Virus record (IMG/VR): IMGVR_UViG_3300048833_000118
Location: 1 to 41,606 of that record
DNA from: a virus
DNA: 41,606 bases
Strand: one strand, 5' to 3'
Shown: in pieces, positions 128-41,606 of the stretch
Layout of the letters: each line of letters begins with the position of its first letter
Numbering within the stretch: position 1 is the stretch's first letter
The notes under the pieces: model-generated
The model's input: the letters and a program-made list of their open reading frames with translations, nothing else
What the model was told of the DNA's origin: nothing
The model's database searches: none
Made by a program: the position numbers and the translations under genes

Positions 128-307
128 CTCGATGGCGCCCTCGATGAGGGACAGGCCGGTGGCGCGTGCGGCGGCGAACCCGTCCTGGTAGCCGTAGCCG
201 TGCGCTGCCTTCGCGCGTGCCCGGGCGCTGGCGTCGGCGGCACGCCGGCCGTCGTCGATGGCGTCACGGATCTCGCGGTCGTACCGCTTGCGGGTGAGGA
301 TCTTCAC
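1..307 (-). CDS. Small charged helical protein, gene crosses the window end
   Basis: The gene starts at GTG 307-305, sharing GTGA with the stop of the helicase gene, with a GGAG six bases upstream. The frame runs open to base 1 and, on the joined circle, continues from 41479 to TGA at 41447-41445. The complete product is 113 residues. It begins MKILTRKRYDREIRDAIDDG and is rich in Ala, Arg, Glu and Gln, with a C-terminal half that looks like a coiled coil. I recognise no family. It sits between helicase and Holliday-junction resolvase in the replication operon, so an accessory role there is a guess from position only. Confidence 0.8.
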   Translation of the reverse strand, partial: MKILTRKRYDREIRDAIDDGRRAADASARARAKAAHGYGYQDGFAAARATGLSLIEGAIEHALTNVEAEHQDTTVEHANAVTRWEKRRLQGRLEALEIVAAR

Positions 308-1089
308 GCTGCACTCCTGTTCAGGGGGTAGAGCTTCATCCGGGCGCCGTCGAACCCGAGCCACACGCACGTCTTGCCCGTCTTGTCGAACGGGCCGTAG
401 CGGTTCTTCACGGGAGCGATGGCGAGGTACGTGCCGTACGAGGCGATCGTGAGGACGAGCGCCTGCAGCTTTGTGTCCTTGCCGAGCACCGCCGAGCGGG
501 GAGGCGCGCACGCCTCCGCCACGACAGCGGCCTCGGACGTGTGAGCGAGGACGACGACCGCGGACCCGGTGTCACGGGCCAGGAACTTGAGCTCCTTGAG
601 GGTGCGCCGCAGCGCGGCCCACTCCTCCTCGCCGTCCGACACGTCCACGAGGTTGTCGATCACGATGAGCGCCGGAGGGCGCCCGTGGATCTCCTCGTAC
701 ACCTGGACCTCGAGGTCGATGTCGTCCAGCGTCGGAGCGCCGTCGAAGCACCACCTGATGTTGCGGACTGCTCCGAGAACCTGCTTCCCCCAGGCCGGAT
801 CCGCTTTCAGGTGGGCCTCGACGACATCCTGCGTCTCGCCCGTGAGCATCGCCCCCAGGCGGACAGCCATCGTCCACGCCGCCGAGTCGGCGCAGATGTA
901 GAGCGTGTCGACGGCCAGGCGCAGCGCGAGGTCGAGCGCGAACGCGCTCTTGCCGGCGCCGGGCTCGCCGGCGATCATCGTCAGCTCGGCCGTACGGATG
1001 TCGCCACCGAGGGCTGCCAGCTCCGGCCACACGGACGGCAGAGGCTGCCCGCCCGTCTCGCCCTGCTGCAGCGCCTGAGTGATGAGCAC
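304..1089 (-). CDS. RecA-fold replicative helicase (DnaB/RepA-like ATPase)
   Basis: A 261-residue P-loop ATPase, probably the phage's replicative DNA helicase. The Walker A motif GEPGAGKS is at residues 41-48, a hydrophobic Walker B strand LIVIDNL at about 141-147, and a sensor-like VVVLAHTS at about 178-185. This order matches the DnaB/RepA/KaiC RecA-fold group. It is shorter than DnaB (about 450) because it lacks the N-terminal primase-binding domain, like other stand-alone phage helicases. The start is GTG 1089-1087, with GGAGAGG upstream overlapping the end of the preceding gene. It lies in an operon with split primase, resolvase and nucleases, and no DNA polymerase gene accompanies it. 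Confidence 0.85.
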   Translation of the reverse strand: MLITQALQQGETGGQPLPSVWPELAALGGDIRTAELTMIAGEPGAGKSAFALDLALRLAVDTLYICADSAAWTMAVRLGAMLTGETQDVVEAHLKADPAWGKQVLGAVRNIRWCFDGAPTLDDIDLEVQVYEEIHGRPPALIVIDNLVDVSDGEEEWAALRRTLKELKFLARDTGSAVVVLAHTSEAAVVAEACAPPRSAVLGKDTKLQALVLTIASYGTYLAIAPVKNRYGPFDKTGKTCVWLGFDGARMKLYPLNRSAA

Positions 1090-1279: not shown

Positions 1280-1380
1280 CAGGCCGTCACCCGCTCACGG
1301 ATGAGCACCCAGCCGATGACCACGACGGCGACCATGCCGACCGTGAACAGCGTCGATGCGAGCTGGTCCTCGAACGTCAC
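1279..1380 (-). CDS. 33-residue single-pass membrane peptide
   Basis: A very small gene from GTG 1380-1378 to TGA 1281-1279. It overlaps the upstream gene by GTGA and the downstream ATG by TGATG. The product has a short acidic N-terminus (MTFEDQLAS), one hydrophobic segment of about 18 residues (LFTVGMVAVVVIGWVLI) and a charged tail RERVTA, so one membrane span is expected. Its overlap with both neighbours in a fully tiled operon is the main reason to accept so small a gene. Function unknown. Confidence 0.65.
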   Translation of the reverse strand: MTFEDQLASTLFTVGMVAVVVIGWVLIRERVTA

Positions 1381-1883
1381 CGGACGAACTCGGCTTCGCA
1401 CTGGCCGGGGGTGCCCTTCGGGGTCGGGCAGAACCACGCCGACCACGGCTTGCCGGTCTTGGACGAGACGCCCTGCTTGAACGTCATCGGCCCGTGCGCG
1501 CACACCTTGCCGCCGGCAGCGGCCGGCGCCGGGGCGGCGGCGGGAGCCTGCCCGGCCCATGCGGGCGGGGGACCCTGCTGCGCCTGCTGCGCCCACGCGT
1601 CGGGCGTCGGCTGCGCGGGAGCCTGCGGCTGCTGCCACTGGCCGAGCGCCTGCGCCGGCGCGCTGTGCGGGTTGGGCGCGTACTGCGACGGGGGAGCCGC
1701 CACGGGCGCCGCGGCCGACGCCGCGGACAGGATGCCCTCGACCGCCACGATCGTGCCGGCCAGCTTCTCGAGGACCGTCAGCTCCTCGACGAGCTGGTCC
1801 GGGTTGTCGGCGTACGCGTTGATGAGCGTGCCGCCGCTGGTCTTGAAGTTGACCTGCAGCTTCGTGCTCGAGGGTGCCGTCAT
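1377..1883 (-). CDS. Protein with Pro/Gln/Ala linker and C-terminal zinc ribbon
   Basis: 168 residues. An N-terminal globular part (about 1-55, beginning MTAPSSTKLQVNFKTSGG) is followed by a low-complexity Pro-Gln-Ala linker (about 58-125). The compact C-terminal ribbon has metal ligands C128, H130, C152 and C162 around a TGKPWSAWFCP core. The layout of a small domain, flexible linker and zinc tail recalls phage accessory DNA-binding proteins, and the position beside nuclease and helicase genes fits. I do not claim single-strand-binding activity. ATG 1883-1881 overlaps the nuclease stop (ATGA), with GGAG eight bases upstream. A copy of the dispersed 20-bp motif lies just upstream at 1904-1923. 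Confidence 0.8.
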   Translation of the reverse strand: MTAPSSTKLQVNFKTSGGTLINAYADNPDQLVEELTVLEKLAGTIVAVEGILSAASAAAPVAAPPSQYAPNPHSAPAQALGQWQQPQAPAQPTPDAWAQQAQQGPPPAWAGQAPAAAPAPAAAGGKVCAHGPMTFKQGVSSKTGKPWSAWFCPTPKGTPGQCEAEFVR

Positions 1884-2734
1884 GCGGGTGTCTCCGTCTC
1901 GTTGTGCTCGGTTGCATTCGGTGCGTAGAGAGAGGCGTCCTTGCCGCCCTTGGCCCAGCACGCGTACGCCACACCGCAGACACCACAGAGGGTGCCGGCC
2001 GGGTTGGCGACGAACGCGCCGGAGTCACGTGCTGTCTTGAACGGTGCCACGTACCGGTCCAGGTACTCCGGCGTGTAGTTGTCCAGGGGGATCGGGTCCG
2101 TCAGGACACCGGTGCGGCCCATGAAGTAGGCGCCGAGGTCCGGCCGCAGACCGTACGTCTCCTCGAGGAGCACGGCGTACGTGCCGAGCTGCAGCGTGTT
2201 CGACGGCTTGCGCTGGCTGGTCTTGAGGTCGACGACGACGATCTCGTTCGCCGGCGTCTCGAACACCCGGTCGACGTACCCCAACACGGGGAGGCCACCG
2301 AACTCGGCGAGCACCTTGAGCTCGATACCGGGGATCCAGTCCTCGGACCCGGGCTCGCGCGGCACTGTGACAAGTTGCCATCCCGACGTGCGACGCCACT
2401 CGATGTACCGCTCGACCATGAGAGGGATGTTCTCGAGCCACCAGGCTTCGCCCTGGCCCTTGCTCGAGCGGGGCTCGTAGCCCTCCGCAGCCTTCCGCTC
2501 CCGCTGCGCCTTCTCGAGCGCAGCCGCCGTCCGCTCCGGCGTGTTGTCGAACTCGTCCGCGAGGTCCATGTAGTCCAGGTAGTCCCACGCCTCGGTGATG
2601 GCGTGGAAGGCGGTGCCGCCCCACGACCACCAGGCCGGCACCTCGGGCACGTGCATGATCTTCTGCAGCCGGTACTGCTCCCCGCAGTTGAGGTACGAAC
2701 CGATGGCCGAGTAGCTCGTGTGCTTCTCAGCCAC
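1880..2734 (-). CDS. RecB/Cas4-like PD-(D/E)XK nuclease with iron-sulfur cysteines
   Basis: A 284-residue nuclease, likely a 5' or single-strand exonuclease for replication or recombination. PD-(D/E)XK residues are visible: H44, E138, D154 (GYVDRVF), D169-L-K171 and a QxxxY-type motif near Q182. Four cysteines, C17 at the N-terminus and C250, C253, C259 at the C-terminus, have the split spacing of the 4Fe-4S cluster in Cas4/AddB-type nucleases. The start is GTG 2734, overlapping the upstream gene by 8 bp. No CRISPR array or Cas1/Cas2 is present, so this is a phage recombination nuclease rather than an adaptation protein. Confidence 0.88.
   Translation of the reverse strand: MAEKHTSYSAIGSYLNCGEQYRLQKIMHVPEVPAWWSWGGTAFHAITEAWDYLDYMDLADEFDNTPERTAAALEKAQRERKAAEGYEPRSSKGQGEAWWLENIPLMVERYIEWRRTSGWQLVTVPREPGSEDWIPGIELKVLAEFGGLPVLGYVDRVFETPANEIVVVDLKTSQRKPSNTLQLGTYAVLLEETYGLRPDLGAYFMGRTGVLTDPIPLDNYTPEYLDRYVAPFKTARDSGAFVANPAGTLCGVCGVAYACWAKGGKDASLYAPNATEHNETETPA
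1904..1923 (-). promoter_or_regulatory. Dispersed 20-bp asymmetric motif, copy 1
   Basis: Reads CACCGAATGCAACCGAGCAC on the minus strand, matching the nine-copy consensus ACCTGAACGCAACCGNGCAC. It lies inside the 3' end of the nuclease gene, 21-40 bases before the next start, and points with transcription. Role unknown; stoperator-like or promoter-element use are alternatives. Confidence 0.6.
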
Positions 2735-4282: not shown

Positions 4283-5305
4283 ATGCGACGCAAGGTGTTC
4301 CTGAACGACGCCGGCAACGAGTACCTCGCTCACCTCGAGGCCCGAGGCAAGGCGCCAGACACGGTGAGGAACCGGCGCATCACGCTCACGCAGTTGCGCG
4401 AGGTCGTCGGCAACATCCAGCTCGACTCGATCACCCCCCGGCACATCGACCGGTGGCGTGCCGCCCACGCATGGCAACCCCGCACAGCGAACCGGAAGGT
4501 CGCCGAGGTCCGCTCGTTCCTGGCATGGGCACGTGCCCGCGGCTACCTCAACCCGAACAGCGACCCCGTGTACGGGTACGCCGCCGAGAAGGCGCCGACC
4601 ACGGCCCGGCTCCGCATCCCGGTCGACGAGTGGGAGCGCATCCTTGACGCCGCCCCGCACCCGCTCGAGCGCGCGCTGATCGCCTGCGGGTTCTACCTCA
4701 TGGTCCGCGCCTCCGAGCTCAAGGGGATCCGTCTGCGGGATGTCGACCTCGCGGCCGGCGAGATCCTCGTCTGGCGCCCGAAGGTGAAGCGCCACGACAC
4801 CATGCCGATCTGCTCCGAGCTCGACGCCGAGCTCCGCCGGTGGCTCACGTGGTACACCGCCACAGCCAACCCCGGACCCGAGGCGTTCCTGCTGCCCAAC
4901 CGCTCCCGCTCGCAGACCGTGCGGGACCCCAAGACGGGGCGCCTGCTGCGCCTGGACAACGACGCACGCGTCAACCCGCTCGAGCCGATCGACCGCCCGC
5001 ACCGTCACGTGCAGATGGTGCTCAAGCCCCTCGGCTACGACATCGCACAGGAGGGTGGGCACACGCTCCGCCGGAGCGCCGCCCGGGCGTACTTCGACGA
5101 GCTCGCCGACACGGGGTACGACGGCGCCCTGCGGCGCGTCCAGTCGGTGCTCGACCACACCTCGAGCGTGACGACGGAGGGCTACCTCGGACTGTCGCTC
5201 GACAAGGAGACGCGGAACAAGGCGCTCAAGGGCAAGCCGATGTTTCGCCGGCACGCCGAGCCGGGCGCTAACGTGGTCAGTCTCGACTCGAGGAGGGAAG
5301 CCTGA
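4283..5305 (+). CDS. int: Tyrosine site-specific integrase
   Basis: A 340-residue phage integrase that would catalyse recombination between attP and a host attB. An N-terminal SAM-like core-binding domain (about 10-85) precedes the catalytic domain. Catalytic residues visible are R142 (MVRASELKGIR), H260-x-x-R263 (GHTLRRSAARAY), H292 (LDHTS) and the nucleophile Y301 (EGYLGLSLD). Length and residue order are normal for the family and nothing is broken. ATG 4283 has GGAG about seven bases upstream. It overlaps the next gene by TGATG. Its divergent orientation from the HTH regulator is typical of a lysogeny module. Confidence 0.95.
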   Translation: MRRKVFLNDAGNEYLAHLEARGKAPDTVRNRRITLTQLREVVGNIQLDSITPRHIDRWRAAHAWQPRTANRKVAEVRSFLAWARARGYLNPNSDPVYGYAAEKAPTTARLRIPVDEWERILDAAPHPLERALIACGFYLMVRASELKGIRLRDVDLAAGEILVWRPKVKRHDTMPICSELDAELRRWLTWYTATANPGPEAFLLPNRSRSQTVRDPKTGRLLRLDNDARVNPLEPIDRPHRHVQMVLKPLGYDIAQEGGHTLRRSAARAYFDELADTGYDGALRRVQSVLDHTSSVTTEGYLGLSLDKETRNKALKGKPMFRRHAEPGANVVSLDSRREA

Positions 5306-15934: not shown

Positions 15935-17107
15935 TCACCCCTGCAATCCGAACATCTGCATGACCTTGTACGCCTGCTTGCCGTACTCGTTCCACGCGTT
16001 CTGCGTGAACTGGTAGCGGGAGTCCTTCTTGATCTCCTGCTCGAACTGCCACAGCGGCAGGTGCGCCGCCTGGCCCTTCTCGTCGACCGCCTGGATCGCG
16101 CGCGCGATGGACGGGTCGTTCACCTTCACGTCCGACTCGGGGATCTCGAGGAGCTTCGCCATCGTCGCCGTGTACGGCGCCGCCAGGTCCCGCACGCTCT
16201 TGCCCGCCCGGATGTCGTCGGCGAACCCCGGGTACGCCGGCGCCACGTACTTGTCGCGCAGCTCGCCGAGCACCTCGTCCGCCGACACCGTGCCCTCGGC
16301 GATGGCCTTGGCCTGCTTGCCGATGAAGTCCTCGGTGAGGTTGATGCCGTTGTCCTCCGCGAACCCGCGGAGCGCCGTCACGGTCTGATCGAACGCGCCC
16401 GACGCCTGCGCCGGGCCGGAGTCCTTGCCCGTGTACGCGCCGCCCTGCTGCTGCCCGAGCGCCACGCGCGGGGCGATGGCGTCCTGCCACGTCTTGCCGT
16501 TGAGGTTGCCGAGCTCCATCGCGGAGCGCAGCGCCGAGAGATCCTCGGGCGCCAGGTCACCGTTGAGCACCGGCTTCTGCCCGCCGTAGTACCCGGCGAA
16601 CCACAGCGCCTTCTTCCACTCGACGCGGGCTTCCTCGTTCTGATCCGCCCACTCGGTGTATTCGTTGCCCGCCGTGTAGCCGGGCGCCTTGCCCGCCGCG
16701 ACCCCGCCGTCCGTCGTGGTGAGCCACGGCGTGTACCCGGACGGGGCGCCCGTGAGCGCCGTGGTGCCGTCGAAGCCGATGAGGCCGTTCGCCCCGGTGG
16801 CCGGCATGGTGCCCGCTCGGGACATCGCCTCGTTCGCAGCGTTCGGCCCGCTCGAGGCGGGAGCGACGCCGGCTGCCGCCGGCTGCAGCGGAGCGTTGTC
16901 CGCCGGGCGCAGCGGGGAGGTGTCCGAGGGGGTGCCCCGGTCCTCCTGCGCGACGCGCCACGCCGCCCACTCCTCGTACGACATCAGCGGGGGACGTGCG
17001 GGAGCGGCCGGGCCGACGAGCGGCGACGCCGGCATCGGCATCGCCTTGTAGTCGGCGACGTACTCCTCGTACGCGACCCGGTTCTCCTCGTCACGATCGG
17101 TTGCCAT
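15935..17107 (-). CDS. Probable internal virion protein
   Basis: 390 residues beginning MATDRDEENRVAYEEYVADY. A Pro/Ala-rich N-terminal third is followed by a helical region with WQDAIAPRVALGQQQGG and a C-terminus rich in Gln, Lys and Tyr. ATG 17107 overlaps the stop of the giant protein gene as TGATG, with AAGG five bases upstream. Tight coupling to the giant protein suggests they act together, perhaps as parts of the ejection apparatus. No domain is recognised. Confidence 0.65.
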   Translation of the reverse strand: MATDRDEENRVAYEEYVADYKAMPMPASPLVGPAAPARPPLMSYEEWAAWRVAQEDRGTPSDTSPLRPADNAPLQPAAAGVAPASSGPNAANEAMSRAGTMPATGANGLIGFDGTTALTGAPSGYTPWLTTTDGGVAAGKAPGYTAGNEYTEWADQNEEARVEWKKALWFAGYYGGQKPVLNGDLAPEDLSALRSAMELGNLNGKTWQDAIAPRVALGQQQGGAYTGKDSGPAQASGAFDQTVTALRGFAEDNGINLTEDFIGKQAKAIAEGTVSADEVLGELRDKYVAPAYPGFADDIRAGKSVRDLAAPYTATMAKLLEIPESDVKVNDPSIARAIQAVDEKGQAAHLPLWQFEQEIKKDSRYQFTQNAWNEYGKQAYKVMQMFGLQG

Positions 17108-31292: not shown

Positions 31293-31420
31293 CCCTCACG
31301 ACCCGTGGCCGGATCGCCCTGGCCCTCGGCATCCTCGCCCTCGTCATCCTGTTCACCGCCGGCACCCGTGACGTGTGCTGGAACGGCACCGCCTACGGCT
31401 CGTGCGAGGTCGGCCGGTGA
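31289..31420 (+). CDS. 43-residue membrane-anchored peptide
   Basis: GTG 31289. Basic N-terminus (MTLTTRGR), one strongly hydrophobic helix (IALALGILALVILFTAG), then a short extracytoplasmic-looking tail with two Cys (VCWNGTAYGSC) that could form a disulfide. It overlaps both neighbours by GTGA. It could be a superinfection-exclusion type peptide, but that is speculation from topology. Confidence 0.65.
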   Translation: MTLTTRGRIALALGILALVILFTAGTRDVCWNGTAYGSCEVGR

Positions 31421-32673
31421 CCCTCTCGACCTACACCGAGCCCATCGTCGACCTGTTCGCTGGCCCCGGAGGCTGGGACGAGGGCGCCACCATGATCGGC
31501 GCCACCAACACGTACGGCCTCGAGTTCGAGGCCAACGCGTGCCGCACCGCCGAAGCGGCCGGGCACGCCCGGTTCCTCGGCGACATCGCCGCGGTCGAGC
31601 CCACCGACTACCGCCCGTGCGTCGGGCTGATCGCCTCGCCGCCGTGCCAGGCGTGGAGCAAGGCAGGCAAGCAGCTCGGCCGGCTGGACAAGGACGCCGT
31701 GTTCCGCCTCGTCCAGGCGTACGCCGCCGGAGAGCCCGGCATCACGCACGAGTGGGCCGACCCCCGATCGCACCTCGTAGCGGAGCCGATGCGCTGGACC
31801 GTGGCGCTCGAGCCCGAGTGGATCGTGCTCGAGGAGGTGCCGTCGGTGCTCCCGCTGTGGGACCTGTACGCCGACCTGCTCGAGGAGCGCGGCTACTCGA
31901 CGTGGCACGGGGTGCTGAACGCTGCCGACTACGGCGTGCCACAGACCCGCAAGCGCGCCATCCTCATCGCCTCCCGCACCCGCAAGGTCGGGCGCCCGGC
32001 GCCCACGCACGGCAAGGATGCCGGGCTGTTCGCCCCCGTGCCGTGGCAGACGATGGCCGAGGCGCTCGGCTGGGATGGGGTCGTCGGCTTCCCCTGCCGG
32101 AGCGACGGAGCAGCCGAGGTCGTCATCGAGGGCACCGCCTACCGTGCCCGTGACCTGAATGCAACCGCGCACCCGGCGCAGGTCGTCACGGAGAAGGCGA
32201 GGTCGTGGCTCCGCATGGGCGCCAACGCCAACGCCACCGTGCGGTCGGTCGAGGAGCCCGCTCCGACCGTGTTCACCGGGCACCAGGCCGGCAACATCAC
32301 GTGGCACCACGACGACCCTCGTGCCACGCAGGAGGGCAGCGAGTGGACGCACGAGCGTCCCGCCACCACCGTCGTCGGCTCGTTCCGCCCCGACGTGATC
32401 GCCGCACCCGGGTGGCGCAAGCCCGGCGACGGACCCCGGCAGAACACCCCCGGCAGCGTCAAGGTCGAGGTGTGGGAGGCCGGCGTCCTGCAGTCCTTCC
32501 GCCCCGACTACCCCTGGCAGGGTGCCCGGACCCGCCAGTTCCAGCAGGTCGGCAACGCCGTACCGCCCCGCCTCGCAGCGCACGTCATCGCCGAGGCCAT
32601 CGGCATCGACCCCACCCCTGGCATCGCTGCCTACTACGCGAAGGCGAGGGCTGCGCTCGAGAGCACGGCCTGA
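31417..32673 (+). CDS. DNA (cytosine-5) methyltransferase
   Basis: A 418-residue C5-MTase that moves a methyl group from S-adenosylmethionine to cytosine. The motifs are complete: I VDLFAGPGGWDEG (about 11-23), IV with catalytic C77 in SPPCQAWSKAGK, VI LEEVPSV (a variant of the usual ENV), VIII YGVPQTRKRAILIASR and X QQVGNAVPPRLAAH. The region between VIII and X contains a target-recognition domain whose specificity cannot be read. No partner restriction endonuclease is adjacent, so it probably protects phage DNA. GTG 31417 overlaps the previous stop (GTGA). Confidence 0.93.
   Translation: MTLSTYTEPIVDLFAGPGGWDEGATMIGATNTYGLEFEANACRTAEAAGHARFLGDIAAVEPTDYRPCVGLIASPPCQAWSKAGKQLGRLDKDAVFRLVQAYAAGEPGITHEWADPRSHLVAEPMRWTVALEPEWIVLEEVPSVLPLWDLYADLLEERGYSTWHGVLNAADYGVPQTRKRAILIASRTRKVGRPAPTHGKDAGLFAPVPWQTMAEALGWDGVVGFPCRSDGAAEVVIEGTAYRARDLNATAHPAQVVTEKARSWLRMGANANATVRSVEEPAPTVFTGHQAGNITWHHDDPRATQEGSEWTHERPATTVVGSFRPDVIAAPGWRKPGDGPRQNTPGSVKVEVWEAGVLQSFRPDYPWQGARTRQFQQVGNAVPPRLAAHVIAEAIGIDPTPGIAAYYAKARAALESTA
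32153..32172 (+). promoter_or_regulatory. Dispersed 20-bp asymmetric motif, copy 7 (inside gene)
   Basis: ACCTGAATGCAACCGCGCAC lies within the methyltransferase coding sequence, in frame as DLNATAH. It shares further bases with the intergenic copy at 30061, so it is unlikely to be a chance codon run. No gene starts nearby. Confidence 0.5.
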
Positions 32674-32741: not shown

Positions 32742-32984
32742 GTGAGCATCTTCCAGAACACCCCGACCGGGAACATCAGCTCCGACGGACTCACCGTCAC
32801 GATCGTCGCCACCGACGAGCGCAAGGTGTACGGGCGCCTCGAGTACCTCGTCACCCCCGTCGCAGGCGAAGGCACCAAGTGGGTGCACGGCACCCGCATC
32901 GAGTGGGTGCGCCCCCCGATCCGCCACCTCCGCCCCGTGCCGGCCCTCGCCGGGCGCCCGTCGATGGACGGGGTGCCGCTGTGA
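32742..32984 (+). CDS. Small beta-rich protein of unknown function
   Basis: 80 residues, beginning MSIFQNTPTGNISSDGLTVT. The first 55 alternate hydrophobic residues as in a beta barrel, and the C-terminus is Pro/Arg-rich. GTG 32742. It overlaps the WhiB-like gene by GTGA, so the two are probably cotranslated. No family recognised. Confidence 0.75.
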   Translation: MSIFQNTPTGNISSDGLTVTIVATDERKVYGRLEYLVTPVAGEGTKWVHGTRIEWVRPPIRHLRPVPALAGRPSMDGVPL

Positions 32985-33436
32985 CGTGGCGACTGCACGC
33001 CAACTGCTCGACCCTCCCGACCGAGACGTTCTTCATGCCCGACACCGAGGGCATGACCCGGGCCGAGCGCGCCGTCATCCAGGGCGCCTACCAGCGCACC
33101 GCACGGTGGCTGCGGGGCGTGTGCTCCGACTGCGCCGTCTGGCAGGAGTGCCGGCTCGCCTCCCTGCCCGAGCTCGGCGGACTGTGGGGCGGCGTCACGG
33201 AGACGAAGCGCCTCGCCGTGCGCCGGGCGTACACCGGCGCCGACGTGGACACCAACGTGGACGACCTCGCCGAGCAGGTCACCCGTGCACTCGAGGCCAT
33301 CGACGCCGGCACCCCGTGGCATGACGCGCTGCGCGCCGAGGCCATCGAGGACAACGACTACTTCCACGACTTCGACGCCTACGCGTCGAACGGCCGGCGT
33401 GCGAACCGCCCGTACCCGAGCGAGGACGCAGCATGA
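32981..33436 (+). CDS. WhiB-family iron-sulfur transcriptional regulator
   Basis: 151 residues. Four cluster-binding cysteines, C9, C48, C51 and C57 (CSDCAVWQEC), followed by the family's turn GLWGGVTE at 67-74 (usual G-[VI]-W-G-G) and then a basic patch (KRLAVRR), define a WhiB-like protein. These bind a 4Fe-4S cluster and modulate RNA polymerase sigma factor A in actinobacteria. The 75-residue C-terminal extension is longer than in most family members. A role in switching host or phage promoters is likely but inferred. GTG 32981. Confidence 0.85.
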   Translation: MTWRLHANCSTLPTETFFMPDTEGMTRAERAVIQGAYQRTARWLRGVCSDCAVWQECRLASLPELGGLWGGVTETKRLAVRRAYTGADVDTNVDDLAEQVTRALEAIDAGTPWHDALRAEAIEDNDYFHDFDAYASNGRRANRPYPSEDAA

Positions 33437-33588: not shown

Positions 33589-33971
33589 GTCTCACGCCCC
33601 GCCCCGAGCACGTGCACCCCGACTGCCTGCCCGGCTCCGGCATCGCCGGCGTGTGCGACCGGTGCTGCGCCAGCCTCTCGCCGAAGGGCAAGAGGTGGTG
33701 CTCCGCCCACTGTGCCCACGCCTACTACGCCGACCACATCTGGAAGTACGCGCGCCGTGCCGTCATCCGACGGGACCGGCACACGTGCGCCTGGTGCGAC
33801 GTGAAGGGACCGGTCGAGGTCGACCACATCGACCCCGCCCTCGGCCACCACCACGTCCACTCGTGCCGGCACCACCGCTCGAACCTGCGCTGCCTGTGCC
33901 CGATGCACCACAAGATCCGCACCGCCATGCAGCGTGCCGAGAGGGACGCCGCACGGAGGGCAGCGTCGTGA
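33585..33971 (+). CDS. HNH endonuclease 1
   Basis: 128 residues. An N-terminal zinc knuckle pair (CDRCC and CSAHC) precedes the HNH core: CAWCDVKGPVEVDHIDP, then NLRCLCPMHHKIRT, giving the D-H, N and H residues of the beta-beta-alpha-metal nuclease. It cuts or nicks DNA. HNH proteins can be free-standing homing nucleases or act with terminase; here the gene is far from terL. ATG 33585; overlaps HNH 2 by GTGA. Confidence 0.88.
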   Translation: MSLTPRPEHVHPDCLPGSGIAGVCDRCCASLSPKGKRWCSAHCAHAYYADHIWKYARRAVIRRDRHTCAWCDVKGPVEVDHIDPALGHHHVHSCRHHRSNLRCLCPMHHKIRTAMQRAERDAARRAAS

Positions 33972-34498
33972 AGATCCCAACCCACTGCATCCACGGGCAC
34001 GAGCTCACCCCGGAGAACCTCTACGTCGGGCCGAAGCGTTGGGGCTGCCGCCCCTGCGGTCGCGCCTATCAGGCCCGCTACCTGGCGGGAGACACGCACA
34101 AGACGACGCGCACCCGGCGCCCGCTCGAGGAGCTCTACACCGTGGCGGAGTCCGGGTGCTGGGAGTGGAACGGGTACGTCAACCCCAACGGCTACGCGTC
34201 CATGAAGCGGCGCTCGTACGCCGGCCGGACCACGGCGCACCGAGTGTTCTACGAGGAGCTCGTCGGACCCATCCCCGAGGGGATGCACCTCGACCACCTG
34301 TGCATGAACACGATCTGCGTCCGCCCGGATCACTGCGAGCCCGTGACCTTTGAGGAAAACCAGCGCCGGGCAGCCGTGGCCCGCACGCACTGCCCGCAGG
34401 GCCACCCGTACGAGGAGTGGAACGTCTACCGCCCCCCGTCGCGGCCGAACGTGCGGCACTGCAAGACGTGCCTCGGGTGGAGGAACCATGCGGCATAG
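33968..34498 (+). CDS. HNH endonuclease 2 with flanking zinc ribbons
   Basis: 176 residues. Central HNH_3-type core HLDHLCMNTICVRPDHCEPV, followed by EENQRR, is bracketed by two zinc ribbons: CIHGHELTPENLYVGPKRWG with CRPC near the N-terminus, and HCPQGHPYEEW with CKTC near the C-terminus. The segment CWEWNGYVNPNGYASM is an AP2-like region often next to such nucleases. Its tandem, overlapping placement with HNH 1 suggests two mobile nucleases fixed in one operon. GTG 33968. Confidence 0.88.
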   Translation: MKIPTHCIHGHELTPENLYVGPKRWGCRPCGRAYQARYLAGDTHKTTRTRRPLEELYTVAESGCWEWNGYVNPNGYASMKRRSYAGRTTAHRVFYEELVGPIPEGMHLDHLCMNTICVRPDHCEPVTFEENQRRAAVARTHCPQGHPYEEWNVYRPPSRPNVRHCKTCLGWRNHAA

Positions 34499-34887: not shown

Positions 34888-35313
34888 GTGTCCGACATCA
34901 AGCTCAAGCCCGAGATCAAGACCCGCTGGGTCGCCGCCCTGCGCTCCGGCGACTACACGCAGGGACAGAACGTCCTGCGGAAGCAGACCACGGCCGGCGT
35001 CCAGCATTGCTGCCTCGGCGTGCTCGTGGAGCTCGCCCTCGAGGACGGCATCGTCAAGCGCATCACCGACGACGCCGCCGCGGGCACCGCCATCTTCGTG
35101 GACAAGCACAGCAACCAGCTCATCGTCCTCCCGTCCTCGCCCGCCGTCGTCGAGTGGGCGCTCGAGAGCAACCCCACGGGCCACGAGGGCGCCGTGTCGA
35201 ACCTGTCCGTCACCACGACCGACGGCAACTGGGCGGACTACCTCACCGGCCTGAACGACAGCGGCCGGCACACGTTCGCCGACATCGCCGACCTCATCGA
35301 GGAGCAGCTCTGA
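34888..35313 (+). CDS. Conserved-looking unknown phage protein
   Basis: 141 residues beginning MSDIKLKPEIKTRWVAALRS. The pattern W..ALRSG-Y-QG...LR, then CCLGVL, is one I associate with small phage proteins of unknown role. It has two adjacent Cys (HCCLGVLVELAL) and a C-terminal acidic helix. GTG 34888 has AAGGA eight bases upstream. It overlaps the exonuclease gene by TGATG. Confidence 0.8.
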   Translation: MSDIKLKPEIKTRWVAALRSGDYTQGQNVLRKQTTAGVQHCCLGVLVELALEDGIVKRITDDAAAGTAIFVDKHSNQLIVLPSSPAVVEWALESNPTGHEGAVSNLSVTTTDGNWADYLTGLNDSGRHTFADIADLIEEQL

Positions 35314-35888
35314 TGCCCACCACCCGCCTCCTGTGGCTCGACCTCGAGACCACCGGCCTCAACCCGGCCGACGACGACATCCTCGAGATCGGCCTCGTCG
35401 TCACCGATGGACTGCGCGATGTGCTCGACGAGCGCAGCATCGTCATCAAGCCGTGGCTGTTCGAGCCCGCCGACCTCGAGCCCGACGTGTGCCGGATGCA
35501 CGAGCAGTCCGGGCTGCTCGACGCCATCGAGACGCACGGCGTGCCGCTCGACGCCGGCATCGCCCGGGCGCAGGCGTACCTCGACTGCTACTTCGGCATC
35601 GACTGGCGCCAGACCATCACGGTCGGCGGCTCCGGCATCGACCGGTTCGACATCCCGTTCCTCAACGTGCACGCACCCGACCTCGCCCGCCGGTTCTACT
35701 ACGGCACCCTCGACACGTCCGGCATCAAGCGGATCAGCCGGCTCGCCGGCCGGGAGCTCACCGGGGGAGCGAACGGTGCCGGCCACCGTGCCGTGGCCGA
35801 TGCGCTCGACTCGTTCCGCATGGCGCAGGCGTTCGCCAAGATGCTCGAGCCCGTCATCCTCACCGCCCCGTCGGGGGTGCTGGCGTGA
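35313..35888 (+). CDS. DnaQ/oligoribonuclease-like 3'-5' exonuclease
   Basis: 191 residues with DEDDh motifs: ExoI LWLDLETTGL (D10, E12), ExoII GSGIDRFDIPF and ExoIII GHRAVADALDSF with the catalytic His and final Asp. Family members act as polymerase proofreaders or degrade short RNA. The phage has no polymerase, so the protein may trim RNA or DNA ends or assist the host replisome. ATG 35313 overlaps both neighbours. Distinct from the leftward-operon exonuclease at 37991. Confidence 0.88.
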   Translation: MPTTRLLWLDLETTGLNPADDDILEIGLVVTDGLRDVLDERSIVIKPWLFEPADLEPDVCRMHEQSGLLDAIETHGVPLDAGIARAQAYLDCYFGIDWRQTITVGGSGIDRFDIPFLNVHAPDLARRFYYGTLDTSGIKRISRLAGRELTGGANGAGHRAVADALDSFRMAQAFAKMLEPVILTAPSGVLA

Positions 35889-37227: not shown

Positions 37228-37365
37228 TCACTCGGCGGGGAGCCACCCCATCAGCCGACCTTCCTCGAGCCAACGCTCGTGTGCCTCCGCCTCGAGGCGC
37301 TCAAGCTCGGCCGCGGCGATCCGGGCACGCGTCTCGACCATGTTGATCGTGTCCGGCCCCTTCAC
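37228..37365 (-). CDS. 45-residue helical protein, last gene of the replication operon
   Basis: GTG 37365 overlaps the sigma-like gene stop (GTGA). The product is one charged amphipathic helix (VETRARIAAAELERLEAEAH) ending GRLMGWLPAE. It may bind the preceding sigma-like protein, but that is only a guess from adjacency. Confidence 0.65.
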   Translation of the reverse strand: MKGPDTINMVETRARIAAAELERLEAEAHERWLEEGRLMGWLPAE

Positions 37366-37994
37366 CGGTCCTGCCCCCGAGTCGCAGCCTGCGCCGACGC
37401 GTTCGACATCACGTGCCGGCGACCCGACCACCCGACACCCTCGCCCGACAGGCGCTGCGCCAGACGCTCGAGGGTGCGCTTCACCCGCATCCGGGCAGCG
37501 TCCTCCGTACACCCCAGCTCCGCACCGATGTCCGACAGCGTGCGATCCACCCCGTACCGGGCACGCAGCAACGCCACGTCCGCCGGCTGCATCCCGTGCA
37601 GCGCCGACGACACGTCCGCCAGCGACGCGAGGAGCTCCGAGCCGGCAGTCGCCCACTCGTCATCGGTGAACACGAACGTGAGCAGCACCTCGAGCTCGGC
37701 CTCCTCGTACGCCGAGCCCTCCTCCTCGGTGCGCCCACCCGTGACGATCTCGTGCTCCTTGCGGGCGTACTTCCGGGCGTGCCGGCCGAGGGACACACGC
37801 AGCTTGTTCGCCCCGTGCGCGCCCTCCTCCCGCCACCGCTCGAGGTGCCGCCCGTTGCGGCACAGCCACAGGTACAGCTCCGCCACGATGTCGTCGGTGT
37901 CGACGTTCGGCCAGGCCCGCCCGATGTAGCGGCCCATCTTGTCCGCCGCCTGGATCTCCTCGGCGTTCGGCTCCACAGTCATCTGCTCGCTCAC
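37362..37994 (-). CDS. Sigma-factor-like DNA-binding protein
   Basis: 210 residues. A C-terminal HTH at about 152-183 (LSDIGAELGCTEDAARMRVK) strongly resembles sigma-70 region 4. The N-terminal NVDTDDIVAELYLWLCRNGR recalls region 2 of extracytoplasmic-function (ECF) type factors but is not fully conserved. It may direct RNA polymerase to late promoters, or act as a RinA-like late activator. It comes near the end of the long replication operon, a good point for delayed expression. GTG 37994 overlaps the exonuclease stop. Confidence 0.7.
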   Translation of the reverse strand: MSEQMTVEPNAEEIQAADKMGRYIGRAWPNVDTDDIVAELYLWLCRNGRHLERWREEGAHGANKLRVSLGRHARKYARKEHEIVTGGRTEEEGSAYEEAELEVLLTFVFTDDEWATAGSELLASLADVSSALHGMQPADVALLRARYGVDRTLSDIGAELGCTEDAARMRVKRTLERLAQRLSGEGVGWSGRRHVMSNASAQAATRGQDR

Positions 37995-38746
37995 GTGGAC
38001 GGCACCCCCACGACCTTGACGCCCGCCTCGCGGATCGTCGAACGGGACCAGGCGCCGCACTTCGCGGCCTTGCACTGGTACTGCTGGAACTTCCCCTGCC
38101 GCGTGTACGCGTAGCCACGCTTCTCGAGACGGCCACCGCAGCGGGTGCACGCCGGCCGGGCGTCGACCACGCCGGCACGCAGCCCCGGCACCGGGTGCGC
38201 CACCACGTACGGGCGGAGGATGCGGTAGAGCTGCGACGTGAGGCGCACGTCGCCGCAGTTGTACGTCCGCATCTTGTTCCACGCGCGCTCGTCACCCTCG
38301 AGGCACTTCACCCACAGCGAGTGACCCTCGTGCGACACCTTCCGCTTGCCGAGGAGCTGGCTCGCCACGTAGTCGAGCTTGTTGCTCTGGAACGCGAACT
38401 CCTTGCGGACCACGGGGAGCAGGTCGATCTGCGCCGGCGGCTTGAGTGGCGGGAACCCGGCGAGCAGGAGCTCGCGCCGGATGTGCCGCATATCGAACTT
38501 GATGCCGTTCCACGTGACCACGGCGTCCGCTTCCGACAGGCGCCCGTGCAGCGCCTCGAGCATCGCGTCGGTGCCGTCGTGGAACTCCGAGAAGAACTCG
38601 ACCGTGCTCTCGCCCTCCCACTTCCAGGCGAACGAGAGGATGCGCGACGGCTCGAGGAGCTGCGCGAGGGACACGTTCGCACCCCACAGGGTCCACACGT
38701 GCGCCGTCGCCGGACTCGTCTCGATGTCGATGACCGCGACCTTCAT
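37991..38746 (-). CDS. DEDD exonuclease (RNase H-fold) with C-terminal zinc ribbon
   Basis: 251 residues. ExoI VIDIETS (D7, E9), ExoII VVTWNGIKFDMRHI (D85) and ExoIII TYNCGDVRLTSQLY (D166) match the 3'-5' exonuclease domain of family B DNA polymerases. The polymerase domain is absent. A zinc ribbon (CTRCGG, then CKAAKCGAW) closes the protein at about 200-235. It could proofread or trim ends with the host polymerase. ATG 38746 overlaps the upstream stop (TGATG). Confidence 0.85.
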   Translation of the reverse strand: MKVAVIDIETSPATAHVWTLWGANVSLAQLLEPSRILSFAWKWEGESTVEFFSEFHDGTDAMLEALHGRLSEADAVVTWNGIKFDMRHIRRELLLAGFPPLKPPAQIDLLPVVRKEFAFQSNKLDYVASQLLGKRKVSHEGHSLWVKCLEGDERAWNKMRTYNCGDVRLTSQLYRILRPYVVAHPVPGLRAGVVDARPACTRCGGRLEKRGYAYTRQGKFQQYQCKAAKCGAWSRSTIREAGVKVVGVPST

Positions 38747-38889
38747 CAGCGGATCAGCCCCTTCGCCGTGGCACGGTTCACGTTCTTGCGGAGCCGGCGC
38801 ATCATGCGCGGCGTGAGCCACACCCGGCCGGAGCCGAGGAGCTGCTTCGACGCCATGACGGCGGGGTCCTTCTGCGTTGCCGTGCTCAC
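38746..38889 (-). CDS. 47-residue basic protein
   Basis: GTG 38889 overlaps the upstream stop (GTGA). The product is basic (VWLTPRMMRRLRKNVNRATA), mostly helical, and may bind nucleic acid. It tiles perfectly between two larger genes. No family recognised. Confidence 0.68.
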   Translation of the reverse strand: MSTATQKDPAVMASKQLLGSGRVWLTPRMMRRLRKNVNRATAKGLIR

Positions 38890-39947
38890 AGGCCAGCCCC
38901 CTTCGGGCGGTCGTCGAACTCCGGCCGGTTGGCGGAGAACCAGTGGAGGCAGCACGCGTGCCACGCCACAGCGATCAGGTGGTTCGAGCCCGTCTCGGCG
39001 TCGATGTCCTCACCGGCGATCCAGGCGAACAGGTGCCGCTGCAGGGCGCCGTACGACTTGGACCACTCGTAGCCGCGCTGCCAGTTGTTGTCGTCGTACT
39101 TGCGTGCGCCGACACCGAAGTGCTCGGCGAGCGCCCACAGGAACCCGGGCGGGATGAGGTCGAACCGTGCCGGCTTGACGCCCTTCTCCCCGCCGGTGGC
39201 GGACACGGTGCGGACCTCGCCCGACGCCGGCGACCCCCCGACCAGGCCACCGCCCGGCAGGATGATGCGGGAGGGGAACGCTGCGGCCTCGAGCACCTTC
39301 TGTTCGAGCACCTTCTCGGCCGGGGTCACGAGCTCGAACCGGCGCGGGTTCCAGTCTCCCGACCGGCTCCCGTCGAGCCCGAGGTGCACCGTGCCAGCGA
39401 CCTCCTCGAGCGCCGTCACCTCGAACTCACCAGCCGAGAGCATCGAGTGCTCCTGCCCGGCCCGGACGCGCACCCGGTCGCCGACCTGGAACGGGCGAGG
39501 CTCCTCCTCGAACGCGAGCACCTCCTCGTCGGGCACCACGTCGTCCCCGGCCTCGGGCTGCATGACGTACGTGAGCACGTGCTCGAGCCGCTCCCGGTCC
39601 CGCTCGAACACCGGCAGCGCCGGCTTGAGCGTGAACCCGCCCGCCTCCTCGGCGATGGCGAGCACCTCGAGCCCGAGCGCCACGGCGACCGACACCTCGA
39701 GCACGGCACCGGGCGACTCGCGCCACTCCGGGCCGACGATCACGGTGTCGACGTGGAGCAGCTCGGCCACGTCGTTCCGCATGTACGTGGAGAACGGCAG
39801 GTCGGTCGCGCCAGCGAACGCCTCGGCCGGGTTGACGACCCGCCAGTGGTGCTTGCGGAGCAGCGCGGCGATCCGGTCGAACCACGCGTAGTTGTAGTCG
39901 ACGTGCCCCGTCATCTTGTTCGACAGGTACGCCCTGCTCGGCTTCAT
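38886..39947 (-). CDS. Fusion: DUF4406-like + SH3-like + dATP/dGTP diphosphohydrolase-like
   Basis: A 353-residue three-domain protein. Residues about 1-100 (RAYLSNKMTGHVDYNYAWFD, then FSTYMRNDVAELLHVDTVIV) match the DUF4406/nucleoside deoxyribosyltransferase-like fold. A small beta domain lies at about 150-208 (FQVGDRVRVRAGQEHSM). Residues about 250-347 (GARKYDDNNWQRGYEWSKSY, then EDIDAETGSNHLIAVAWH) fit the all-alpha DUF5664 dATP/dGTP diphosphohydrolase group that includes MazZ. It probably edits nucleotide pools. No PurZ is present. ATG 39947 overlaps the TOPRIM stop. Confidence 0.82.
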   Translation of the reverse strand: MKPSRAYLSNKMTGHVDYNYAWFDRIAALLRKHHWRVVNPAEAFAGATDLPFSTYMRNDVAELLHVDTVIVGPEWRESPGAVLEVSVAVALGLEVLAIAEEAGGFTLKPALPVFERDRERLEHVLTYVMQPEAGDDVVPDEEVLAFEEEPRPFQVGDRVRVRAGQEHSMLSAGEFEVTALEEVAGTVHLGLDGSRSGDWNPRRFELVTPAEKVLEQKVLEAAAFPSRIILPGGGLVGGSPASGEVRTVSATGGEKGVKPARFDLIPPGFLWALAEHFGVGARKYDDNNWQRGYEWSKSYGALQRHLFAWIAGEDIDAETGSNHLIAVAWHACCLHWFSANRPEFDDRPKGAGL

Positions 39948-40624
39948 GTGAGTCCCGCTCTCGCTCGCAGTCCCTCGGCTCCTTCGAGGAGGAACGTGTC
40001 GGTGGCGTCCATGCCCTGCTCGAGCCGGACGATCTGCACGGTCGTGGTGTCGTTCAGGTCCTTGGCGATCTGCTTCCCGAGGTCCCTGCCGGCGTCGTCG
40101 CCGTCGGCGAACACGAGGACGCGGGAGAACGGGCGGAACATGCGGGGGTAGTGCTTCTGCCCGTTCCACACCTGAGCGCCGGGGATGCCCACGGCGGGCA
40201 CCTGGACGTGGTGGTGGACGATGAGCGCGTCGAGCTCGCCCTCGCACACCGCGACCGTCGCCACGTCGGACATCAGCGCCTGCGCGTTGAACATCCGAGG
40301 CGACTTGCCCGGGAGGTTGAGGTACTTGCTGTGCCCGGCGTCCTTGCACGACCGCTCGGCGCCGAGGTCGTCGGTGCCGTGGTTCGTGATGCAGCGGAAC
40401 CGGATGTCGACCGGGCCGGCGGGGGTGAGGAACGGGATGGCGAGCCGACCGAGGTAGTCCTCGTGCCCGGGCATCGGGTCACGGACGACACCGAGCCGGG
40501 CGTGGCCGGCGATCGGCCCGTCGATGCCACGGTTCTCGAGGTACTCGCGCGCCTCGAGCACGTGCCCCTGGTAGGTGCGGACGGCCCGCTCGAGGTCGTC
40601 GCGCTGCGTCTGGCTCAGCGCCAC
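39944..40624 (-). CDS. TOPRIM primase (catalytic half)
   Basis: 226 residues. TOPRIM motifs VAVCEGELDAL (E128, E130) and VLVFADGDDAGR (D174, D176) bind magnesium. The upstream region ARLGVVRDP and the NRGIDGPIAGHA start fit DnaG-type phage primase cores. The zinc domain is encoded separately (40755-41105), with a 47-residue Cys-rich gene between the two. It makes RNA primers, probably with the helicase encoded at 304-1089. GTG 40624 overlaps the preceding gene by 10 bp. Confidence 0.88.
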   Translation of the reverse strand: MALSQTQRDDLERAVRTYQGHVLEAREYLENRGIDGPIAGHARLGVVRDPMPGHEDYLGRLAIPFLTPAGPVDIRFRCITNHGTDDLGAERSCKDAGHSKYLNLPGKSPRMFNAQALMSDVATVAVCEGELDALIVHHHVQVPAVGIPGAQVWNGQKHYPRMFRPFSRVLVFADGDDAGRDLGKQIAKDLNDTTTVQIVRLEQGMDATDTFLLEGAEGLRARAGLT

Positions 40625-40758
40625 GGGTACACCGCCTTGCGCGTGTGCCCACACTCGATGTCGGGGCACGTCTCCCACGGGCACGTGCGCGAGTCACAGT
40701 GGGAACGGAACGTCACCGTGACGCCGCACCCGGGGCACAGCTCCTGGTCGAGAGTCAC
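40615..40758 (-). CDS. 47-residue cysteine-rich zinc protein
   Basis: GTG 40758 overlaps the zinc-half primase stop (GTGA). The sequence has CPGCG, then CDSRTCPWETCPDIECGH, seven Cys and two His in 47 residues, enough for two zinc sites. Lying between the two halves of a split primase, it may join or modulate them. That role is inferred from position only. Confidence 0.72.
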   Translation of the reverse strand: MTLDQELCPGCGVTVTFRSHCDSRTCPWETCPDIECGHTRKAVYPWR

Positions 40759-41105
40759 CTGCGTCCCCTCCTGCCCGGCGGCTTGTAGCCGCGCTTCGCC
40801 CCGGCCGACCGGCCGCTGCTGATGTGCGATGTTGCGTTCGGGTCAGCCTCGAGCCGATCCCCGATGAGCAGGGCCTCGACGAACGAGACGCCCTCCCGGT
40901 GCTGGATCAGGGAGTAGACATCGCCCTTGACCCCGCAGGCGTGGCACTTGAACACGCCCTCGTTGGTGTTGACCGCGGCCGACGCCGTGGAGTCGTCGTG
41001 GTACGGGCACTTCGTCGCCCGCCACCCGGTGCGATCGTGGATGGGCGGGGACCCGTGGGCCTCGAGCACCGCAGCGATCGACGGGCGGGTGTGCTGCTCA
41101 CGCAC
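40755..41105 (-). CDS. CHC2 zinc-finger primase half
   Basis: About 116 residues. The core CPYHDDSTASAAVNTNEGVF, followed by KCHACG, is a CHC2 zinc-binding domain of DnaG primases, which recognises template DNA. The helix after it (DVYSLIQHREGVSFVEALLI) is also typical. A basic C-terminus (GAKRGYKPPGRRGRR) may bind DNA. GTG 41105 is used; GTG 41114 is possible. Its 3' part holds a copy of the dispersed motif (40824-40843). Confidence 0.85.
   Translation of the reverse strand: MREQHTRPSIAAVLEAHGSPPIHDRTGWRATKCPYHDDSTASAAVNTNEGVFKCHACGVKGDVYSLIQHREGVSFVEALLIGDRLEADPNATSHISSGRSAGAKRGYKPPGRRGRR
40824..40843 (-). promoter_or_regulatory. Dispersed 20-bp asymmetric motif, copy 9 (inside gene)
   Basis: Reads ACCCGAACGCAACATCGCAC on the minus strand, inside the zinc-primase gene, where it encodes DPNATSH. 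It ends 66 bp before the start of the next gene and points with transcription. Confidence 0.55.
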
Positions 41106-41448
41106 GAGGGTCACCGTGCCCGGCGTCCCGCAGGAGCTCGACGAACTGCCCGAGCGTGATGACGACCGGCCACTCGGCGATCGACGCCGGCCCCTGCCCG
41201 TCCTGGCGGAGGACAGCCCACGAGAGGACGCCCTCCGCCGCACGCTCTGCCTGCTGCCGCATGGCAGCCATGACGTTGAACCCGCGCCGCGCCTTGACCT
41301 CGATGTCGTGACCGATCACTCCGGTCACGTCGGTGCCGGTGCGGCCGGCACCCGTGGACATCGCGTACGGGAACCCGTGCTTGGCGAGGTACTCCGCCAC
41401 GATGTCCTGCGACTTGTAGCCGCGGTGCTTGCGGGACTGCGAGGTCAC
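41098..41448 (-). CDS. Holliday-junction-resolvase-like PD-(D/E)XK nuclease
   Basis: 116 residues. D40, E50 and K52 (TGTDVTGVIGHDIEVKARRG) form the core of the archaeal-type resolvase fold, and a helix with KSQDIVAEYLAKHGFPYAM precedes it. It should resolve branched DNA during replication, recombination or packaging. GTG 41448 overlaps the stop of the gene crossing the join (GTGA). Confidence 0.85.
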   Translation of the reverse strand: MTSQSRKHRGYKSQDIVAEYLAKHGFPYAMSTGAGRTGTDVTGVIGHDIEVKARRGFNVMAAMRQQAERAAEGVLSWAVLRQDGQGPASIAEWPVVITLGQFVELLRDAGHGDPRA

Positions 41449-41606
41449 GACTCGCGGATCTCCTCGAGCTGCGCCGTGAGGCGCGCGGCCACGATCTCGA
41501 GGGCCTCGAGCCGGCCCTGCAGCCGGCGCTTCTCCCAGCGGGTGACGGCGTTGGCGTGCTCGACGGTGGTGTCCTGGTGCTCGGCCTCGACGTTGGTGAG
41601 CGCGTG
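41445..41606 (-). CDS. Right-end part of the gene crossing the join
   Basis: This is the 3' part of the gene that starts at 307. Bases 41480-41606 repeat 1-127; new sequence is 41445-41479, coding LTAQLEEIRES and then TGA. The frame matches exactly at the join. It is partial here only because the circle was cut. Confidence 0.8.
   Translation of the reverse strand, partial: HALTNVEAEHQDTTVEHANAVTRWEKRRLQGRLEALEIVAARLTAQLEEIRES
41480..41606. repeat. 127-bp terminal duplication (right copy)
   Basis: Identical to 1-127; see the left copy. One copy should be removed when the molecule is treated as a circle. Confidence 0.95.

Follow-up and report, generated by a model that had tools for sequence, protein, structure and literature searches.

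The 41,606-nucleotide virus record IMGVR_UViG_3300048833_000118 from IMG/VR, analysed here at its full length and referred to as the window, carries a replication operon with a DnaG-type primase split over two genes and no recognisable DNA polymerase. The operon is best explained as that of a small actinobacterial phage, probably temperate and podovirus-like, that is related to the Streptomyces Beephvirinae and would encode its own helicase, two-polypeptide primase, nucleases and nucleotide-pool enzymes and have its DNA made by the host replicase; we assign this reading a probability of about 0.88. The uncoupled primase genes, with an open reading frame (ORF) of 47 amino acids (aa) inserted between them, are an uncommon variant of a gene pair that overlaps in most of its relatives.

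The record carries an exact 127-bp terminal repeat (1-127 and 41480-41606) and is therefore probably a complete circle of 41,479 bases. A common word length of assemblers is 127, so the repeat may be the trace of a circular assembly instead of a genuine terminal repeat. On the circle, 55 genes were called by codon score; the 47-aa ORF fell under the threshold of the gene caller and was entered from the ORF list. The replication operon lies on the minus strand and spans the circle junction. In the order of transcription, its genes are as follows.

1880..2734, minus strand: RecB/Cas4-like PD-(D/E)XK exonuclease, the first large nuclease gene of the operon (PDDEXK_1 2.8e-17, phrog_1870 5e-43; homologue in the Beephvirinae phages Manuel and Dennebes)
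1377..1883, minus strand: L5 gp49-like protein, next after the RecB/Cas4-like nuclease
304..1089, minus strand: DnaB-like replicative helicase, RecA-type core only (phrog_243 1.9e-58, DnaB_C 3.3e-8; 33% identical to Manuel DnaB)
41445..41606 and on to about 307, minus strand: 113-aa ORF across the circle junction, no function assigned (gene call on the circle)
41098..41448, minus strand: RusA-like Holliday junction resolvase, by its phage label (phrog_244 4.5e-11; 45% identical to the annotated resolvase of Manuel and Dennebes)
40755..41114, minus strand: CHC2 zinc-finger half of a DnaG-type primase (Zn_ribbon_DnaG of Pfam 3.5e-13, phrog_360 2.4e-26; C-terminal tail RGYKPPGRRGRR)
40615..40758, minus strand: 47-aa ORF with six cysteines, between the primase halves (coding signal and Shine-Dalgarno-like sequence)
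39944..40624, minus strand: TOPRIM half, a complete DnaG-type RNA polymerase domain (Toprim_2 3.2e-6, phrog_849 7.6e-49; AlphaFold2 model)
38886..39947, minus strand: DUF4406 (deoxyribosyltransferase-like) domain fused to a dATP/dGTP diphosphohydrolase domain (DUF4406 5.1e-15, dGTP_diPhyd_N 4.2e-33)
37991..38746, minus strand: stand-alone DEDD exonuclease with a C-terminal four-cysteine zinc ribbon (RNase_H_2 3.5e-12, phrog_403 1.4e-77)
37362..37994, minus strand: sigma-70 region 4-like protein (Sigma70_r4 7.5e-8; 31% identical to the neighbour of the exonuclease in the IMG/VR locus L077)

Two small ORFs separate the L5 gp49-like gene from the helicase gene, and another (38889-38746) stands between the DUF4406 fusion and the exonuclease. 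The helicase, the two primase halves, the resolvase, the DEDD exonuclease and the RecB-like nuclease named in the original prediction were thus all recovered through Pfam or PHROGs matches. The interval 37228-41606 to which they had been assigned holds the primase halves, the resolvase and the exonuclease, whereas the DnaB-like helicase and the RecB/Cas4-like nuclease lie past the circle junction.

The earlier statement that the circle contains no polymerase was borne out. Six-frame profile searches of the window for polymerase families A, B, C and Y (PF00476, PF00136, PF07733 and PF00817, of which PF00136 is the family B palm/fingers/thumb domain) and for Prim-Pol (PF09250) gave no match, while the positive controls matched, and no polymerase emerged when the large unassigned proteins of the window were scanned with Pfam and PHROGs. 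Six-frame searches were also made in 25 split-primase records, namely the window, 8 isolates and 16 IMG/VR contigs of at least 35 kb, which may be fragments. PolA was found in three of these records (Rhodococcus Bradshaw, Mycobacterium AFIS and Gordonia Remus), and PolB, PolC and PolY in none of the 25. These results indicate that phages of this group as a rule combine a helicase-primase operon with the polymerase of the host; many other temperate phages likewise use the host polymerase. The phage therefore likely relies on the host replicative polymerase, as is ordinary for split-primase phages. Dependence on host polymerase III, as first proposed, remains the best reading and a likely one, but it is no special feature of this phage, since 22 of the 25 records are without PolA. 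Because a missing polymerase and a split primase are both normal here, neither is to be read as a new mode of replication.

In the mechanism that we propose, the CHC2 half would read the template and the TOPRIM half would synthesise RNA, the two being translated separately and assembling in trans, probably on the DnaB-like helicase. Host polymerase III would extend the resulting primers, and the RecB-like nuclease, the resolvase and, presumably, the DEDD exonuclease would process ends and recombination intermediates.

The core gene order of the operon is shared with the nearest isolates, the Streptomyces phages Manuel, Dennebes and Immanuel3 of the Beephvirinae. Manuel and Dennebes carry the RecB/Cas4-like nuclease, DnaB, resolvase, CHC2 and TOPRIM genes in the same order as the window, Immanuel3 has the same core order when read from DnaB onward, and no polymerase was found in any of the three. 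Seventeen of the 55 window genes match Manuel or Dennebes at 1e-2 or better, with identities of 48% for the capsid, 40% for the portal, 44% for the terminase, 33% for DnaB and 41-44% for TOPRIM. Homology to the Beephvirinae at the protein level therefore covers the capsid, portal, terminase and replication core, although we do not file the phage as a member. A podovirus-like virion form is what we infer for it. Manuel and Dennebes encode clusters of tRNAs and a deaminase, whereas the window encodes an integrase but no tRNA; the primase genes of Manuel, Dennebes and Immanuel3 overlap by 149 nucleotides (nt), whereas those of the window lie apart. The phrog_403 exonuclease was not found in these three phages. 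The host phylum is probably Actinomycetota; a host scan of genome contigs gave three loci, the best being a contig of a Nocardioides metagenome-assembled genome (MAG) at 37%.

A counterpart of the operon is found in the 44.4-kb contig IMGVR_UViG_3300027708_000122 (L077/L095, also G015). Its order follows that of the window: DnaB, another gene (X), a PD-(D/E)XK-like gene, CHC2, TOPRIM, again a gene X, a DUF4406 fusion, the exonuclease (52% identical) and the sigma-like protein (31% identical). Searches for PolA, PolB, PolC and PolY in this contig found none. In contrast to the window, its primase genes overlap by 173 nt with no 47-aa ORF, and the DUF4406 fusion partner is DUF1599-like where that of the window is dGTP_diPhyd_N. 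The proteins at the resolvase position of the two gave no BLASTP match to each other. In both, the DUF4406 fusion occupies the same place, which in the window is directly downstream of the primase.

The exonuclease at 37991 had been described as resembling the proofreading domain of a family B polymerase left alone with a zinc ribbon. Its fold and its ribbon agree with this description: Foldseek places it closest to family B polymerase exonuclease domains (E 5e-8, query template modelling score about 0.5-0.57), and an alignment of 29 sequences identifies the residues D7, E9, D85 and Y162-x3-D166 together with C200, C203, C225 and C230. E9, D85, Y162, D166 and the four ribbon cysteines are invariant in 29/29, while D7 occurs in 90% or more (L124 is N-terminally truncated). 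The protein thus has both the DEDD residues and the four-cysteine C-terminal ribbon of the phrog_403 exonucleases. Being left alone, by contrast, is not specific to this phage, because these proteins form a known stand-alone zinc-ribbon family that occurs with or without a phage polymerase. The exonuclease matches 1,515 phage records, and among 17 IMG/VR contigs of at least 32 kb that carry it, PolA is present in 7 and absent from 10. Two of the 25 split-primase records, the window and G015, contain it, and it is therefore part of at least two polymerase-free operons.

The protein shares the DEDD exonuclease fold with MrfB/YprB and with the family B polymerase domains, and differs from both in standing alone, in its C-terminal four-cysteine ribbon and in its Y-x3-D motif III; MrfB is classed as DEDDh in the abstract of PMC11194089. 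A role as a trans-acting proofreading subunit for the host polymerase would fit the nearest fold and the PHROGs family name, 'DNA polymerase exonuclease subunit'. We nevertheless consider this role unlikely: the nearest solved protein by sequence is the repair exonuclease MrfB (8un9, 1.6e-4), and the mixed co-occurrence with PolA, together with the presence of the exonuclease in so few split-primase records, argues that it is tied to no particular polymerase. Its presumed role is the processing of ends and recombination intermediates, as in the proposed mechanism. A second DEDD-type exonuclease is encoded on the plus strand at 35313-35888 (RNase_T 6e-9; phrog_192).

The window has the two separate ORFs, CHC2 and TOPRIM, of a two-gene DnaG-type phage primase. 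Its TOPRIM half matches 1,489 and its CHC2 half 1,072 of 50,697 phage records, and most of the matches listed carry the annotation DNA primase, frequently on a pair of genes. Actinobacteriophages, including cluster A mycobacteriophages and phages of Propionibacterium acnes, Rhodococcus and Gordonia, have separate neighbouring CHC2 and TOPRIM genes that are each annotated as a DNA primase. Judged from sequence, the split is family-wide and no peculiarity of this phage. The CHC2 profile matches structures of the DnaG zinc-binding domain (1d0q and 2au3, about 1e-15). An AlphaFold2 model of the TOPRIM half built from 36 sequences has a mean predicted local distance difference test score (pLDDT) of 96, is folded from residue 5 and spans the whole DnaG RNA polymerase domain. 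It aligns with Aquifex DnaG 2au3 at a VIA-align Z of 20.9 (root-mean-square deviation 3.0, 208 aligned; Foldseek E 5e-11) and with T7 gp4 1nui at a Z of 16.6. Among the residues of its E-G-E and D-G-D motifs, E128, G129, E130 and D176 are invariant and D174 occurs in at least 90% (n=36). The zinc-domain match and the complete predicted TOPRIM fold together indicate that the two polypeptides between them supply the zinc-binding domain and the catalytic domain of a primase of the DnaG type.

The two genes usually overlap. We compared 166 CHC2/TOPRIM pairs (89 + 77), made up of the window, 8 isolates, 156 IMG/VR loci and one Nocardioides MAG contig. An overlap of 101-218 nt was present in 155 of them, every one with TOPRIM in the +1 frame relative to CHC2; the overlap is 149-185 nt in the 8 isolates, in contrast to the window with its intervening ORF. 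The remaining 11 pairs are uncoupled (the window, L009, L045, L054, L056, L065, L175, L179, L182, L183 and L229), and with the overlapping form defined as an overlap of at least 100 nt with TOPRIM in +1, the window falls outside it. The TOPRIM start position is conserved among 9 aligned sequences, and a Shine-Dalgarno-like motif, scored with a loose pattern, lies upstream of the start in 83/89 loci, so separate initiation of TOPRIM is likely. In the open PubMed Central (PMC) literature, a scope outside which most subscription papers fall, neither the overlap nor dual coding of a primase tail was found described. The available portions of PMC11536984, PMC3094311, PMC13313380, PMC4626039 and PMC7302621 give no description of the overlap, although a table in that of PMC3094311 lists the coordinates of the two primase genes of P. 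acnes phages as overlapping, without comment.

The CHC2 tail of the uncoupled loci often ends in Y-x-P-P-x-x-R, as in SYKPPRLRR, SYVPPRLRRRQA and, in the window, GYKPPGRRGRR. Overlapped loci could have the same tail only if the TOPRIM gene contained its coding sequence. The Y.PP motif was present in the CHC2 frame of the overlap in 15 of 51 representatives (75% clusters) against 0.14 expected from synonymous shuffles of the TOPRIM codons, in 8/29 against 0.05 at 60% clustering and in 5/19 against 0.04 at 50%; this motif corresponds to the tails of the uncoupled loci, although it was chosen after both sets of tails had been seen. A looser tail motif, picked after the overlapped tails had been viewed, occurred in 20/51 overlapped representatives (0.70 expected) and in 8/11 uncoupled loci. 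The CHC2 frame was more open than in synonymous shuffles at p<0.05 in 18/83 loci (median p 0.155), and after 75% clustering p was below 0.5 in 47/51 and below 0.05 in 7/51 representatives, the loci in these tests being related and hence not independent.

The enrichment of Y.PP over the shuffles points to selection on the CHC2 tail and thus to dual coding in part of the family. Two observations speak against this. The looser motif is missing from 104/155 overlapped loci, and the fraction of fourfold sites with the same third base is 0.43 in the overlap versus 0.40 elsewhere, with the overlap scoring higher in 967 of 1866 pairs, a conservation that is only weakly raised and by itself gives no support for dual coding. 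We hold with moderate confidence that the CHC2 tail and the TOPRIM start are dual-coded in part of the family.

The claim that a 47-residue cysteine-rich gene separates the primase halves was correct (40615-40758, 6 Cys), and with 11/166 pairs uncoupled the feature is genuinely uncommon. The ORF is probably coding: it scored best of the six frames (log-odds +1.5 versus -11 to -46), its third-position guanine-cytosine content is 0.90, the Shine-Dalgarno-like sequence aggagggg precedes its GTG start, and both of its ends overlap the neighbouring genes. It had no Pfam or PHROGs match, no credible relative in the 50,697 phage records (best E about 2) and no relative among the split-primase loci compared.

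The other uncoupled loci show how such a gap may arise. In L179, the stretch at 1026-1625, between CHC2 and a complete TOPRIM gene, contains a relic TOPRIM start followed by a homing-endonuclease-like stretch (zf-His_Me_endon 1.1e-4 and HNH_3 1.4e-4, both below the curated cut-offs). The CHC2 gene overlaps the relic, which over 42 residues shares 64% identity with the genuine start farther downstream and is recognised by the profile at E 9e-17; the CHC2 tail is retained as QYVPPRLRRNVE. The overlap has therefore apparently been duplicated around the insert, and L179 appears to be an intermediate in its uncoupling. L045, L054, L056 and L182 have no relic and mutually similar inserts that are homing-endonuclease-like by eye or weakly so (profile match of L056 only 0.047), and L183, whose TOPRIM start is very similar to theirs, has no insert. 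The gap of L229 holds an unrelated 103-aa ORF, and those of L009, L065 and L175 hold none.

A profile scan of the 11 uncoupled loci for a relic of the TOPRIM start found one in L179 and none in the other 10, including the window. A fixed-register test in 6 uncoupled loci gave p values of 0.07 to 0.90 over the full stretch, with no clear support; in the window, the upstream part of that stretch alone gave p 0.01, as one of 18 tests. A relic of the TOPRIM start in the CHC2 tail was consequently dropped as a general rule, and duplication of the overlap is shown for L179 only.

Since the gaps contain unrelated ORFs or none, the gap seems to be a site at which small genes are gained and lost, and the 47-aa ORF is for the same reason most likely cargo and not required for priming. 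The alternative that its product serves the primase as a third subunit, bridging the halves of the uncoupled genes as a zinc adaptor, draws on its position between the halves, its Shine-Dalgarno-like sequence, its tight coupling to both neighbours and a richness in cysteine like that of the CHC2 half. It is rather improbable, because the related primases manage without this ORF, no relative of it was detected in the phage records or compared loci, and the gap behaves as an insertion site.

We favour, by a small degree, a model in which the Y-x-P-P basic tail of CHC2 is a docking tail, often dual-coded in the first 100-200 nt of the TOPRIM gene, and the window belongs to a minority that lost the dual-coding overlap when it was duplicated, in many cases together with a homing endonuclease; small genes such as the 47-aa ORF would then accumulate in the resulting gap. 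If so, the uncoupled phages would be natural controls that show what each half needs. The useful part of the analysis is this comparison: most sampled pairs have a conserved out-of-frame overlap that seems to be dual-coding, the separated genes of the window show that the overlap is not essential, and the window points to a short C-terminal CHC2 motif as a candidate contact between the halves or with the helicase.

Two points weigh against the absence of a polymerase. The profile for protein-primed family B polymerases (PF03175) had no match in the window, but it matched no control genome either, and a polymerase may be too diverged for the profiles, chiefly in one of two large proteins. The first, of 2163 aa (17107-23598, in the structural block), matches no PHROGs family and Dennebes only weakly, at 1e-4; the second, of 524 aa (11024-12598), has no match. 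A divergent polymerase concealed in either is nonetheless very improbable and was rejected: none emerged from the six-frame searches or the Pfam and PHROGs scans, both proteins sit in a late/structural block syntenic with Beephvirinae structural genes, no unassigned protein in the replication operon is large enough to be a polymerase, and the relatives are normally without a polymerase. Residues 456-508 of the 2163-aa protein form a weak GNAT-like stretch.

Fusion of the two primase products by programmed +1 frameshifting, which the uniform +1 register of all 155 overlapping pairs would suit, has hardly any chance of being correct: in the window the CHC2 frame ends at 40755, the TOPRIM frame opens about 60 nt later and the CHC2 stop lies 133 nt ahead of the first aligned TOPRIM codon, so that with no open stretch common to both frames one frameshift cannot join the halves. 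Frameshifting is thereby ruled out for the window; for the family, where no search for a conserved slippery site was made, it is disfavoured by the 11/166 pairs without overlap, by the coinciding TOPRIM starts and the loosely defined Shine-Dalgarno-like motif before the nearest start, and because the fused product would discard the enriched motif in the CHC2 tail beyond the TOPRIM start. Separate translation of the two halves therefore remains the preferred reading.

Outside the operon, the temperate nature of the phage is probable from its integrase.

4295..5305, plus strand: integrase (phrog_1 4.5e-31)

A repressor-like protein (phrog_3929) is encoded at 3519-3983, upstream in the minus-strand arm, and adjoins this opposite-strand gene; its place beside the integrase suggests a temperate life style, unlike that of the virulent Beephvirinae isolate Abafar. 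The window further encodes a C-5 cytosine DNA methyltransferase at 31417-32673 (PF00145 6.7e-33), and its plus-strand arm contains a WhiB-like regulator at 32981-33436 and an HNH endonuclease at 33968-34498.

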